From positions 1 to 20,475 of IMG/VR virus record IMGVR_UViG_3300029319_000664: a DNA stretch of 20,475 bases; one strand, 5' to 3'. This document shows positions 4,416 to 20,475 of this stretch, in pieces. The DNA is from a virus. The notes beneath the pieces are model-generated. The model was given only the letters and a program-made list of their open reading frames with translations, did not search any database and had not been told where the DNA came from. Positions within the stretch are counted from its first letter, which is position 1. Every line of letters starts with the position of its first letter. Made by a program: the position numbers and the translations under genes.

Positions 4416-4769
4416 TTAGTCAGTTGTGACGTTGTTAGTAACACCAGTCGTGGGGGTCTCAACAGTGCCTGTAGTGGCTGTCCCAGTTGTGGTGGTTGTT
4501 GCAGTTGTGTCTGTCACAGCATTTGTGTTGCCACAAGTTGTACAGTCACATCCACAGTTACAATTCTCATTAGAATTGGTGGTTACAATACCAGTAGCGG
4601 TATTATCAGTTGCAGTGGTACCAACTGTGGTAGTAGTGGTGTTAACAGACGCTGGAGTCGTCGCTTCAACCGTTGTACCAGTAGTTGTTACAGTATTAGC
4701 TGGTGGGTTGCAGCCCAACAGCAAGACACAAGACGCCATAATGGCAAAGACACTTTTAATTAAAATCAT
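4416..4769 (-). CDS. Thr-rich lipoprotein with a CxCxCxCxxC cluster
   Basis: This 117-residue protein begins with a short charged end (MILIKS), a hydrophobic stretch and a lipobox LLGC (17-20), so it should be cleaved and lipidated at Cys20 and anchored in a membrane. The mature part is dominated by Thr, Ala, Val and Asn, as expected for an unstructured or surface-exposed linker. A central cluster has Cys70, 72, 74, 76 and 79 (NCNCGCDCTTCG), which could bind metal or form disulphides. The start is ATG with AAAAGG about 9 nt upstream, and a repeated hairpin precedes it. Known phage lipoproteins such as Llp of phage T5 block the receptor against superinfection. A similar role is possible here but unproven. 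The low-complexity Thr codons also leave a long open plus-strand frame (4426-4803) that is only a shadow. Confidence 0.7.
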   Translation of the reverse strand: MILIKSVFAIMASCVLLLGCNPPANTVTTTGTTVEATTPASVNTTTTTVGTTATDNTATGIVTTNSNENCNCGCDCTTCGNTNAVTDTTATTTTTGTATTGTVETPTTGVTNNVTTD

Positions 4770-16829: not shown

Positions 16830-17144
16830 TTACTCCATTGGCCAAGGAATGCCCGTTTTTCGCTCAAAGCTTTTTATGGCAGCATCCAACTTTTTTTTAT
16901 TTCTATAAGTTTGAGGACTATCTAAGCCATAGCTCTTAAAGGCCTTCATATAACTGGCTTCACCAGCTAAAGCATCAATAAACACTTTAACTTTATCTGA
17001 AGAGCCACGAACAACCAATTCCATGGCTGGGCTGGCAATGCCAAGAAGATCCTTTAATATGGCTGCTACACCAGTTCTAAATGAATTTAAGAATCCTTCA
17101 TTAAGTTGTTTTGAATCAAGATCAATTATAAGCTTATCAGACAT
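16830..17144 (-). CDS. Small tail-module protein of unknown function
   Basis: This 104-residue protein sits between the gp26-type/partner frame and the tape measure. It begins MSDKLIIDLDSKQLNEGF, carries an amphipathic stretch GVAAILKDLLGIASPAMELVV, and ends with a lysine-rich helix and FERKTGIPWPME. It has no cysteine, no signal sequence and no membrane segment. The ATG has GAGGG 7 nt upstream, and a 9-mer ACTATTTAT motif lies 17 nt upstream. Its stop is immediately before the tape measure start. The position and size suit a tail assembly or tail-end factor, but I do not recognise the family. Confidence 0.6.
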   Translation of the reverse strand: MSDKLIIDLDSKQLNEGFLNSFRTGVAAILKDLLGIASPAMELVVRGSSDKVKVFIDALAGEASYMKAFKSYGLDSPQTYRNKKKLDAAIKSFERKTGIPWPME

Positions 17145-17177: not shown

Positions 17178-17204
17178 AAAAAAAGCCATAAGCAGAAAGC
17201 TTAC
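17178..17204 (-). terminator. Weak hairpin with T-run after the partner frame of the gp26-type gene
   Basis: The minus strand has TAAGC, a 5-nt loop TTTCT and GCTTA, then TGGC and seven T (17184-17178). The TAA stop of the partner frame lies in the first stem arm. The stem is only 5 bp and is separated by 4 nt from the T-run, so it is a marginal terminator. Confidence 0.35.
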
Positions 17205-17455
17205 AGCGTTTTAGTTCCTTTCATTTTTTGGTATTGTTGTTTTTCTTGCTCAAAATGTTTCATTAAGCGTTTTAAAAACCAAAGCCTGATTTTAAGGGGC
17301 AAGTTATAGGCTTCTGTAAAGCTCCAACCACCATGTATTTTTAAAATAAAAAACTGCTCAAAGACCTGCTCCATATAGCTAGGATCTAGGCCAAAAAAAG
17401 TCCGCGTTAAACGGAACCTCCATGTCTTGTTCATAGGAGCAGTAGCCGCACTCAT
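17201..17455 (-). CDS. Partner frame of the gp26-type gene; likely made by ribosomal frameshift (gp51/GT-like extension)
   Basis: This open frame overlaps the last 77 nt of the gp26-type gene in the +1 frame. No ATG in it (17455, 17434, or the one after GLDPSY) has a ribosome binding site. The first 21 codons merely re-read the CGYC region, and protein-like sequence begins only after the T7 run: GLDPSYMEQVFEQFFILKIHGG, then EAYNLPLKIRLWFLKRLMKHF. The latter resembles the 'YNLP-x-x-x-R' helical module seen in T4 gp51-like hub assembly factors. The simplest reading is that this segment is translated as a 63-residue C-terminal extension of the upstream protein, giving a fusion of about 362 residues. 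Independent initiation is an alternative. Location between tube and tape measure is where tail chaperone frameshifts occur in many phages. Confidence 0.6.
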   Translation of the reverse strand: MSAATAPMNKTWRFRLTRTFFGLDPSYMEQVFEQFFILKIHGGWSFTEAYNLPLKIRLWFLKRLMKHFEQEKQQYQKMKGTKTL

Positions 17456-18290
17456 AATGTTGTGTTAAATCAATATTAGGAGCAAGCTTCTGGTAGATTT
17501 TTCTGACAAATCTAGAGTCAGAGGCAGGCATATTGTGAACAAGAAGTTCAATAGCTTTGCGTTCAGTATGTCCATCAGCAGAGGCGATAAACGTTTTTAA
17601 CTGCGTTGTAAGAACACTATCGTCTTTTTTAGATGACGTAATTATTTTAGAGATAATTTTTTCTTCTCGGCCAGTTAGCAATTTTAATTCTACTTTAACT
17701 TTCATTCTTGGAAGTTCAACAAGGAAAGTGCCTTTGTCAGTTTTTTCAATGTCAACGTCCATTTCAGCCAAAGCGTCTACACCGCCAGATGAAAGCACAC
17801 CATCTTGCAAATCAAAAGTATATTCTCCAGCAGTGCCACAACGGGGGCAGGTAATTCGCGTTGTATAATCAGAGCCATAACCGGAAGAGCGAGCTGCGAC
17901 CACAAGTGCATTTTTATCACCCACCAATAATTCTTCAACTTTAACGCGCTTGTCAGCGATAATATTTTGAAGCATTCTATCGATCGCAACACCTTTCTTA
18001 ACCAAGGCAGGTGATGTTAAGATATCCTCATCTTTGGCTGTCATGTACTTAATTTCAATTGTATCGCACATGTGCAAAGGGTGGTCAGGGCCATAGTAAA
18101 GCCCCTTGGAAGGAATCTCAACAAACTCTGTTGGGACTGTAAAAGAAAATAATCCACTGGCTTGTGAAGCAGAAGCCTCGCTATCGGTTTGCTTTTCAGC
18201 AGCCTCCGCAGCAGCAATCTGTTCAAAAACCTCTTCGGGAATACCAGATTGAGGGGCTGAGAAGCGCCCCTCATTACGTTTCATACTCAA
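17379..18290 (-). CDS. T4 gp26-type baseplate hub assembly protein (tail chaperone position) with two CxxC pairs
   Basis: This protein has 303 residues. After a Glu/Ala/Ser-rich N-terminus (1-48) comes the family-typical VPTEFVEIPSKGLYYGPDHPL (52-72), then EIKYMTAKDEDILTSPALVKKG (79-100) and LLVGDKNALVVAARSSGYG (121-139), as in T4 base-plate gp26-like proteins. CPRC (148-151) and CGYC (281-284) could form a zinc site. The protein closes with FNADFFWPRS. T4 gp26 is needed for hub assembly but is thought not to stay in the mature hub, so it acts as an assembly factor. The start is TTG with GAGAGG 6 nt upstream; ATG at 18284 is the alternative. The T7 run in codons 298-300 allows shift into the partner frame. 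An extended -10 promoter candidate lies upstream. Confidence 0.8.
   Translation of the reverse strand: MSMKRNEGRFSAPQSGIPEEVFEQIAAAEAAEKQTDSEASASQASGLFSFTVPTEFVEIPSKGLYYGPDHPLHMCDTIEIKYMTAKDEDILTSPALVKKGVAIDRMLQNIIADKRVKVEELLVGDKNALVVAARSSGYGSDYTTRITCPRCGTAGEYTFDLQDGVLSSGGVDALAEMDVDIEKTDKGTFLVELPRMKVKVELKLLTGREEKIISKIITSSKKDDSVLTTQLKTFIASADGHTERKAIELLVHNMPASDSRFVRKIYQKLAPNIDLTQHYECGYCSYEQDMEVPFNADFFWPRS
17393..17399 (-). other. Putative programmed frameshift site (T7 run)
   Basis: Zero frame reads GAC TTT TTT TGG CCT AGA TCC TAG. Phe-tRNA on TTT in the P site can slip one base forward and still pair with TTT, so that decoding continues with GGC CTA GAT in the partner frame. A two-base backward slip gives the same frame with one extra Phe. 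A -1 slip would end after two codons (TTG GCC TAG). A GGAGG sequence lies about 16 nt upstream of the run. This is farther than the stimulatory Shine-Dalgarno of known sites. Confidence 0.6.
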
Positions 18291-18360: not shown

Positions 18361-19002
18361 CTAAATGTCTGTCACGACAGCACTTGGATTGTGTGTAATT
18401 TCTGCCCAATCATATCTTAGAGTCATTGAAATTTCCACCATATCCTCAGAATCGTAAGCCAAATCACCGAAATTAACATCTTGAACCCAAGCGTTTCTCA
18501 AAGTCCAGGTTTCTAAAAGTTGAAGCTCAGCAGCTTTTTTAACTTGCTTATGAAGATCTAAATTAGCCTCGCCAGTTGGCGCAGCGGATTCATGATGACT
18601 AATAAACTGATAAATGTTAAGCGAATCAACAGACAATGCTTTTTTAGATAGCATGTATGTTTTTCTATTATCTGGATAAATATAACCTGCTCTTCTAATA
18701 TTTTCAACCAAAGCTTTGGATGTATCAAAATTACCACCTGGGTCAACCAGTGTGGCCTCAACGGCGTTCCATTCTACTTTACCAGGATAATAAAAAGTAT
18801 GATTTAAGATTTTGTGAGGAGTTTCGGCGACTGTGAAGGAAGGCTTTGTAATTGACTTTACTTGCCAAAATTGCAATTCTGGACCACCCTGCAAGCCTGG
18901 AGGTGCTAGTGGTGTTAAGTCCACGTAAAACTTAAATTTTCTTTTTGGTTCCAGACTTAAATCAGTCCAGAAATTTTTTGGGTTTACTCCACCTTGTGCC
19001 AT
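18361..19002 (-). CDS. Tail tube protein, T4 gp19-like
   Basis: This 213-residue protein forms the inner tube of the contractile tail (T4 gp19 has 163 residues). Family-like segments are KFKFYVDLTPL (near 22-32), WQVKSITKPSFTVAETPHKIL (46-66), HTFYYPGKVEWNAVEATLVDPGG (68-90) and the terminal pair WTLRNAWVQDVNFGDLAYD followed by MVEISMTLRYDWAEI. A middle loop with ISHHESAAPTGEANLD is longer than in T4. The start is ATG with AGGAGG 8 nt upstream. The sheath gene precedes it and the gp26-type gene follows, giving the expected order sheath, tube, chaperone, tape measure. Confidence 0.9.
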   Translation of the reverse strand: MAQGGVNPKNFWTDLSLEPKRKFKFYVDLTPLAPPGLQGGPELQFWQVKSITKPSFTVAETPHKILNHTFYYPGKVEWNAVEATLVDPGGNFDTSKALVENIRRAGYIYPDNRKTYMLSKKALSVDSLNIYQFISHHESAAPTGEANLDLHKQVKKAAELQLLETWTLRNAWVQDVNFGDLAYDSEDMVEISMTLRYDWAEITHNPSAVVTDI

Positions 19003-19042: not shown

Positions 19043-20475
19043 TTAATCTTCAAAAGCAGCTCCTGCATTTGAAATGGTAAAGTCTACTGCAATGAACTCG
19101 ATAGCCTTTGCCGGCTTTAAGAATACTTTTGCATAGACCACGTTTCTATCAACCAAGTCAGGGGTTGTAGTGGTTGTGTCCAACACCAGCTTGTAGTCAT
19201 CAATTCCAAGTCTAGATTTGACGCTTGACAAGAATGGGTTTGCTTCATTTAAGAATCGATTCCAAGTTGATTGAACATTTTGATCAAACAATATTGTATT
19301 TGCGATTCTAGAAATTTGCTTTTTAATGTAAATCATAGAACGTCGAACGTTAATTCTATCTAAGGCAGAAGGTGTAACCTGTAAGGTTTTCTGGCCAAAG
19401 ATCACAATACCTTCACTTGGGAAAGATGCAATTGGATTGATGTTTGCATTGTAAAGTTTGTCTCTTTCATTAGACGTAAGTTTCTCACGAACACCGACCA
19501 CTGGTAGGCCTGAGGATCCCTCTGATAAGCCACCTCGGACAAATCCTGCAGGTGCGAACCAAAGCTCACTTCGTGCCGCTGAATTACCTATTGTACCGAG
19601 AGCAACAACAGATGGTGGCACCCAAATAATTTTATTTGTGAATTGATCTCTTACTTGGACCCATGGATAGTAAGCGCAACCATAACTTGTATTTAGCGCT
19701 CTAGTGTTAAGCTGACTAATTGTTTCATCAACACTTCCCAATCGAGAAGTTTCACCAGTAGTGTCTTCATGATCCGATTTATAACCGCCCTCTAGATCAA
19801 TAATTGCAAGAGCGTCTCCGCGATCTTCAACAGTTCTTAAAAGTTGATCAGTAATTTTTGGCTCTGTGATGCCTGGCACGCTAGCCAGGTTAAACTCCAC
19901 AACTTCAGGATCAGCGATTGAGCGAATTGCTCTCTTGATGCTGTATAGCTCAGAGCTATCTCTTTCTTGAGAAGCAGCTGATAATAATGAATTTCTAAAT
20001 GGATCTCTTTCTGTAATGTCAAGCCCATCAAACCCACCATAAAGAGGCAATGTAAACTTATTAATCTCTTGATCAATAATTGCTAAGTTACCACTTGTTG
20101 CTGTAAATGATGTGCCATTTGCACGAGATCCTGATACGTACTCGTAATGACCAGTTGAAGCTCCTCCACTGTTGTTCTTGCGAACAAGATCATCGAGTGT
20201 AAAGATAAACGAAAAAGGAAGTCCTTTTGCAGAAGAGAAGGAATCTAGTGGATATGGCTTAGCCCTTAAGATGTCCACAATGCTTTCTTCATGCTGTAAC
20301 GAGGCTCCACCTTTGGTCGTATCCATACCAAAGAAAGCGTTCTTTGGATCCGGCAATGATCCTGACTCAGTGTCGCCACGAAGAGGCAATACAGGGAATC
20401 CAAATGTGGCAGTTAAATTGCTTGTGTCGCCACCATTGGCTGGAGTTCCATAACTGCCCAGCGGTACGCCACCCA
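19043..20475 (-). CDS. Tail sheath protein, T4 gp18-like; 5' end outside window
   Basis: The frame is open for 476 codons from the window edge to the stop at 19043. A TTG at 20389 is only an internal Leu codon: the frame continues upstream without a stop for 28 more codons, so the true start lies beyond 20475. The protein is the contractile sheath subunit. Characteristic parts are PGITEPKITDQLL, the NTSYGCAYYPWVQVRDQFTNK region, WVPPSVVALGTIG, GIVIFGQKTL, the SALDRINVRRSMIYIKKQI helix and a C-terminus with YAKVFLKPAKAIEFIAVDF, which interlocks with neighbouring subunits in known sheaths. T4 gp18 has 659 residues, so about a quarter or more of the N-terminal side is probably missing here. The tube gene follows after about 40 nt. 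Confidence 0.95.
   Translation of the reverse strand, partial: GGVPLGSYGTPANGGDTSNLTATFGFPVLPLRGDTESGSLPDPKNAFFGMDTTKGGASLQHEESIVDILRAKPYPLDSFSSAKGLPFSFIFTLDDLVRKNNSGGASTGHYEYVSGSRANGTSFTATSGNLAIIDQEINKFTLPLYGGFDGLDITERDPFRNSLLSAASQERDSSELYSIKRAIRSIADPEVVEFNLASVPGITEPKITDQLLRTVEDRGDALAIIDLEGGYKSDHEDTTGETSRLGSVDETISQLNTRALNTSYGCAYYPWVQVRDQFTNKIIWVPPSVVALGTIGNSAARSELWFAPAGFVRGGLSEGSSGLPVVGVREKLTSNERDKLYNANINPIASFPSEGIVIFGQKTLQVTPSALDRINVRRSMIYIKKQISRIANTILFDQNVQSTWNRFLNEANPFLSSVKSRLGIDDYKLVLDTTTTTPDLVDRNVVYAKVFLKPAKAIEFIAVDFTISNAGAAFED

Follow-up and report, generated by a model that had tools for sequence, protein, structure and literature searches.

One gene of the viral DNA analysed here (20,475 nucleotides of IMG/VR record IMGVR_UViG_3300029319_000664, referred to below as the window) probably gives rise to two tail assembly chaperones through a +1 slip that would be aided by an upstream GGAGG motif and a short hairpin. 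According to this reading, most ribosomes would stop at the zero-frame TAG and release a gp26-type short protein of about 301 aa, and a minority would slip +1 at UUU UUU UGG to make a protein of ~360 aa with a gp51-type helical tail. The GGAGG could base-pair to the anti-SD of the ribosome during translation; the hairpin, which lies between the GGAGG and the U7 run, may bring the SD-like motif near the shift site and, by re-forming as the mRNA leaves the ribosome, may push the ribosome one base forward. Short and long forms would act like lambda G and GT, both binding the tape measure and the tail recruiting the tube protein. We infer the ribosomal nature of the shift, its efficiency and the chaperone function.

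The features of the locus are collected in Table 1. The original prediction had placed seven T in codons TTT TTT TGG just before the zero-frame stop, and its coordinates and frames are right: the gp26-type gene ends in GAC TTT TTT TGG CCT AGA TCC TAG, the open +1 frame extends from 17455 to 17201-17203, where it meets a stop, with the tail read from the GGC codon at 17392, and the -1 frame runs into an immediate TAG after the slip run. The predicted products of 303 and about 362 aa also agree with the computed ones, since the ORF list gives a short product of 303 aa from TTG 18290 or 301 aa from ATG 18284 and the +1 fusion comes to 360-362 aa. The gp26-type gene matches PF12322 (E 3.2e-12, 47 bits against a curated cut-off of 24.5) and the baseplate hub family phrog_150 (E 2.5e-16). 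It sits between tube and tape measure genes, in relatives as in the window, where the tape measure assignment is based mainly on position and length. HTVC008M and phiM12 carry ORFs of similar size where the window has its 104-aa ORF.

Table 1. Features of the putative chaperone locus and its neighbours in the window.
Feature	Position	Strand	Basis or remark
Sheath gene	19043-20473	minus	upstream context
Tail tube gene	18361-19002	minus	phrog_4542 tail tube, E 1.1e-21; upstream context
gp26-type zero-frame gene, short product	17379-18290	minus	ORF; PF12322; phrog_150
GGAGGT, SD-like motif within gp26-type gene	17416-17421	minus	17 nt before slip
5' hairpin TCCGT-TTAAC-GCGGA adjoining T run	17401-17415	minus	MFE -5.2 kcal/mol
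T7 slip site, codons TTT TTT TGG	17393-17399	minus	conserved in relatives
Zero-frame stop TAG	17379-17381	minus	15-18 nt after slip start throughout clade
+1-frame gp51-type tail, 63 aa, plus stop	17201-17392	minus	homology to gp51 tails
104-aa ORF, chaperone gene to tape measure interval	16830-17144	minus	ORF; no family match
Probable tape measure gene, 887 aa	14161-16824	minus	position, length; weak TMP_N match, E 0.038

A scan of IMG/VR identified 80 relatives, which together with the window form 51 loci non-redundant at 90% nucleotide identity. A further 61 non-redundant loci served as a held-out set, bringing the total to 112 (<90% identical), and a second clade, that of Flavobacterium phage immuto (loci L293-L372), contributed 41 non-redundant loci. 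Comparison across these sets, drawn from a large group of T4-like bacterial viruses, shows conservation of the slip site, the tail, the SD-like motif and the hairpin, as well as homology to gp26 and gp51. The slip site lies at the same place in all of the first 51 loci, with the full T7 run in 48 of them, the others having TTC TTT TGG (L017 and L048) or TTT CTT TGG (L047); in the held-out set the T7 run is present in 61/61. The two slip codons are TTT in 99 out of 101 cases, against 370 of the 502 Phe codons elsewhere in the gene (p 8e-10). In the immuto clade the site reads TTT CTT TGG or TTT CTA TGG in 24 loci and TTT TTT TGG in 17. Slip site, nearby stop and +1 tail are kept in the 112 loci and in the 41 of the immuto clade, with one lineage differing.

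This lineage consists of L002 and L003, from two metagenomes and identical across this stretch (4820-5000 of L002), in which a 4-nt ACAT duplication early in the tail places the tail in the -1 frame. Here GAT precedes the run (T_TTT_TTT), CCA replaces CCT, which removes the -1 stop, GGAGG is missing and the hairpin is weak. It is possible that this is a natural +1 to -1 switch; being a single lineage, it could also reflect a sequencing error or a dead gene. The same +1 cassette was seen on four contigs of bacterial MAGs (L374, L375, L376 and L377, from Actinomycetes, WOR-3, Alphaproteobacteria and Flavobacteriales), the MAG assignment of such phage contigs being weak; the slip site of L377 is TTC TTT TGG. 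A 484-kb uncultured phage record (L083, LR756508.1) has TTT CTA TTC at the slip, immediately preceded by a strong 7-bp hairpin (-11.0 kcal/mol) and, before that, by GGAGG.

The partner frame had been described as protein-like exactly after the run and as having no ribosome binding site at its start codons, and both statements are borne out. Conservation in the +1 frame starts at the slip, where the junction Phe-Gly-Leu is invariant (49/49); upstream of it most +1-frame positions vary and several are stops in some relatives. The tail is complete wherever the contig permits, L002 and L003 excepted. No +1-frame start codon in the window has an SD-like motif at usable distance, and among the 51 loci such a motif precedes any +1-frame start in only 4. 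A conserved start codon for the tail was sought across the 112 loci and not found. Short form and tail were modelled apart in the structure prediction. The tail model is predicted to be helical (pLDDT 81), and its comparison with viral predicted structures gave no significant match.

Upstream of the slip we found a signal that the original prediction had missed and that is the most unusual part of the locus. From roughly codon -11 to the slip, the choice among synonymous codons is constrained: Glu at -10 is encoded by GAG in 23/23 cases (33% elsewhere) and Asp at -1 by GAC in 42/45 (39% elsewhere). Most of this constraint is explained by GGAGG and the hairpin. GGAGG occurs in 108 of the 111 scored loci, at a spacing to the slip of 17, 23 or 26 nt with one exception, and anti-SD pairing upstream of the slip exceeds that of synonymous shuffles (z -7 to -9). 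The hairpin shows up in the 18 nt before the slip, where the mean folding energy over the 51 loci is -4.96 kcal/mol against -1.73 in synonymous shuffles (z -13.9), and the folding signal is weaker or absent at other offsets. In the held-out set the values are -4.56 and -0.66 (z -24), with 57/61 loci below their own null median; the z-scores for hairpin and SD-like motif are inflated by the relatedness of the loci. The window's own hairpin has a p of 0.0055 against synonymous shuffles. Stems are short and usually 1-4 nt off the T run. In one subfamily a Val and a Gly codon pair through their third bases as U-A, U-G, A-U, G-C and C-G, and in both the number of cells paired and the covariation score none of 500 shuffles reaches the level of this structure. 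For the subfamily to which the window belongs, the covariation test gives no support for a single hairpin register, and the hairpin there rests on energy and position. No clear hairpin was found in the +1 relatives Mel-JY01, SP-15, LIS04 and RM378. The 60 nt downstream of the slip show no structure (mean z -0.27), and a classical 3' stem-loop or pseudoknot stimulator was accordingly rejected.

The spacing of the SD-like motif bears directly on how the signal might work. SD-stimulated shifts use 9-14 nt for -1 and 3 nt for +1 (PMC5009743). The linear spacing in the +1 clade, 17-26 nt, departs from the 3 nt of prfB-type +1 shifting, which weighs against our explanation; with the hairpin looped out the spacing becomes 2-4 nt, although only in 58/95 loci. 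This looped-out spacing and the spacing rules for -1 and +1 form the basis of the looped-out mechanism that we propose. The P-site slip, for its part, is of the NUU_U kind, with UUU_U in the window and UUU_C in many relatives. We are evenly divided on whether SD-like motif, short hairpin and UUU_U or UUU_C together constitute a new class of bacterial +1 signal, in which the spacer would be folded out, the SD-anti-SD duplex would push the ribosome forward and the hairpin, where present, would help to determine the direction. The last point derives from the same gene family shifting -1 with an SD-like motif ~9 nt away and no hairpin. In the immuto clade GGAGG is present in 24/24 loci with interrupted runs versus only 4/17 with TTT TTT TGG, as if the SD-like motif compensated for a less effective slip site; common descent may account for some of this pattern.

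Two known systems resemble parts of this arrangement. The +1 shift of prfB (release factor 2) also combines an NUU_U P-site slip, UUU_U in a few species, with an SD-like stimulator (PMC5009743), but it has a stop codon in the A site and its SD 3 nt away, whereas here UUU or UGG follows and a hairpin lies between the slip and the more distant motif. For the bypassing of T4 gene 60, a 5' stem-loop that forms behind the ribosome has been suggested to move it forward (PMC5009743); that system differs in its 50-nt bypass, matched GGA codons and nascent peptide signal, compared with the one-base shift here. A likely +1 shift at the tail chaperone position has also been described for the haloarchaeal myovirus HSTV-2, which we liken to our case by description only (PMC5009743).

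The main rival to a ribosomal +1 slip is hairpin-stimulated transcriptional slippage, in which RNA polymerase would drop one U in the U7 run and the long product would arise by normal translation. A hairpin beside a T run does resemble a transcriptional slippage signal, or a terminator, and this counts against our explanation; in the Roseiflexus IS630 element a hairpin adjoins the slip motif and a one-base deletion results (PMC5009743). The window, with a hairpin directly 5' of a realignable run and a site that also scores terminator-like, fits this model, as do the 13/17 immuto-clade T7 loci without GGAGG. However, the runs are interrupted to 3-4 T, leaving no clean realignment, in 24 of the 41 immuto-clade loci and in L017, L047, L048 and L377, which makes slippage of the polymerase a disfavoured and, in our estimate, unlikely source of the long product. 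It would moreover give no role to GGAGG, conserved in nearly all main-clade loci. We think even less of a terminator or attenuator that would lower tape measure expression, with an overlapping frame devoid of product, and give this reading scarcely any weight. A consensus scan does score the site terminator-like, but chance alone would yield 1.8 hits of this kind across the region, the stems are short and set off from the run, the site is located within a coding region, and neither GGAGG nor the conservation of the +1 tail would be accounted for.

The tail might be translated separately if ribosomes stopping at TAG restarted at a nearby ATG, for instance the one located 25 nt after the slip start. 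A +1-frame ATG occurs within 45 nt in 57 of the 112 loci, in cyanophages an ATG just past the stop is conserved and gp51 is annotated as a separate gene, and SD-like motifs located close to gene ends can mediate translational coupling (PMC5009743). We nevertheless hold reinitiation to be improbable, as in 50/112 loci the +1 frame contains neither ATG nor GTG nor TTG between the slip and +45, and as it leaves unexplained why there is a slip run, why Phe-Gly-Leu ahead of the ATG is invariant and why T4 gp51 is fused. The direction of a ribosomal shift had been given as +1 or, alternatively, -2, which would yield the same tail with one extra Phe. Shifts of -2 are known in some tail chaperones, for example that of phage Mu, and the U7 run itself permits one. 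A -2 slip would mispair at TTC TTT TGG (L017, L048 and L377) and at TTT CTT TGG (L047 and most of the immuto clade), whereas after a +1 slip the UUU codon re-pairs on UUU or UUC at all variant sites. This pairing argument points to +1 and disfavours -2, to which we assign a very low probability. The window also departs from the canonical -1 heptamer X_XXY_YYZ, having C_TTT_TTT followed by TAG in the -1 frame.

The +1 slip would join two recognisable parts, as the original prediction had proposed in describing a gp26-type front and a gp51-like tail. The front profile matches the gp26/gp51 profile (E 1.6e-9), and the alignment ends at the slip Phe codons, corresponding to T4 gp51 residue 200. 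The tail profile matches gp51 tails, from cyanophage and KVP40 'gp51' ORFs and the T4 gp51 C-terminus, with hhalign at 94.6% (E 7e-8, 57 columns); enlarging the set of tails gave E 3.6e-6. Among phage records, 1,334 hold a protein that resembles gp51 along 80% or more of its length. The view of T4 gp51 as a tail only needs amending: PF12322 is matched by T4 gp26 (E 9e-64) as well as by gp51 (E 4e-52), the latter being a full gp26-like paralogue with 48 extra residues. The two T4 genes are separate, on opposite strands and divergently transcribed, and no shift is involved, unlike in the window clade, where one gene with a +1 slip would supply both. In T4, then, a pair of paralogues seems to provide the two forms, gp26 being the short one and gp51 the long one. 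Separate genes with no slippery run, a situation that had been named as refuting the frameshift, do occur here, but as a paralogue pair that fits the idea.

These relationships favour the likely equivalence with G/GT that had been suggested. As in lambda, a single chaperone gene located between those for tube and tape measure would yield two forms, the longer one through a frameshift close to where the first frame ends, and as in G/GT-type genes an overlapping second frame without a start of its own is joined at a conserved slip. The lambda system differs in that the shift is usually -1, that there is no sequence match, and that in the window the scaffold is a T4-type gp26 and the shift would be +1 at UUU_U, accompanied by SD-like motif and 5' hairpin. 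T4 was named in a 2016 review as the exception to the G/GT frameshift strategy (PMC5009743), and a 2010 review listed gp26 and gp51 as hub assembly chaperones, describing gp51 as an essential protein whose function was unknown and which is not part of the particle (PMC3004832). On our comparisons gp26 and gp51 look like G/GT tail chaperones, with T4 as a split, two-gene version of the same pair, given that its gp51 is a gp26-like paralogue plus the tail. If so, both proteins would gain a concrete role, in tape measure chaperoning and tube nucleation, testable in T4 itself. When the short form model was compared with solved structures, the first match was the HK97 tail assembly chaperone 2OB9 (Z 5.1, rmsd 3.8, 89 aligned), a weak match (Foldseek E 1.2) that is suggestive only; a sequence search against solved structures gave no match.

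The same two parts, in overlapping frames and placed before the tape measure, are found in other T4-like phages, where they are joined through a canonical -1 site instead of the +1 site of the window clade. In P-SSM2, S-PM2, HTVC008M, phiM12 and KVP40 the -1 frame at the end of 'gp26' is occupied by the overlapping 'gp51' ORF, the site being T_TTT_TTC or T_TTT_TTT, and Atu_ph07 and PA5oct have the same kind of -1 site. T_TTT_TTC is invariant in 27 non-redundant cyanophage and KVP40-type loci; with KVP40 gp26 as query only two viral contigs were matched. In the cyanophage set an SD-like motif lies ~9 nt upstream (z -10), and a hairpin sought before the -1 site was not found (z 0.6). Our search of the openly licensed literature found no report of a frameshift joining gp26 and gp51; an earlier mention elsewhere is possible. 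Should gp26 and gp51 correspond to G/GT, the fusion product has probably been overlooked where 'gp26' and 'gp51' are annotated in cyanophages and other T4-like phages. That the same fusion would be reached by -1 or +1, with or without a hairpin, offers a natural comparison of what sets frameshift direction.

Elsewhere in the window, a terminator-like hairpin plus T run (17185-17207) is found where the fusion frame stops, before the 104-aa ORF. Searches of the window gave no Rfam match and no tRNA. A low-complexity, Thr-rich ORF at 4416-4769 has a lipoprotein-like N-terminus (LLGC), and the start of a ribonucleotide reductase gene at 2-493 (RNR_Alpha, E 3.9e-5) is accompanied by genes for a DnaB-type helicase, a 5'-3' exonuclease and a RecA-type protein.
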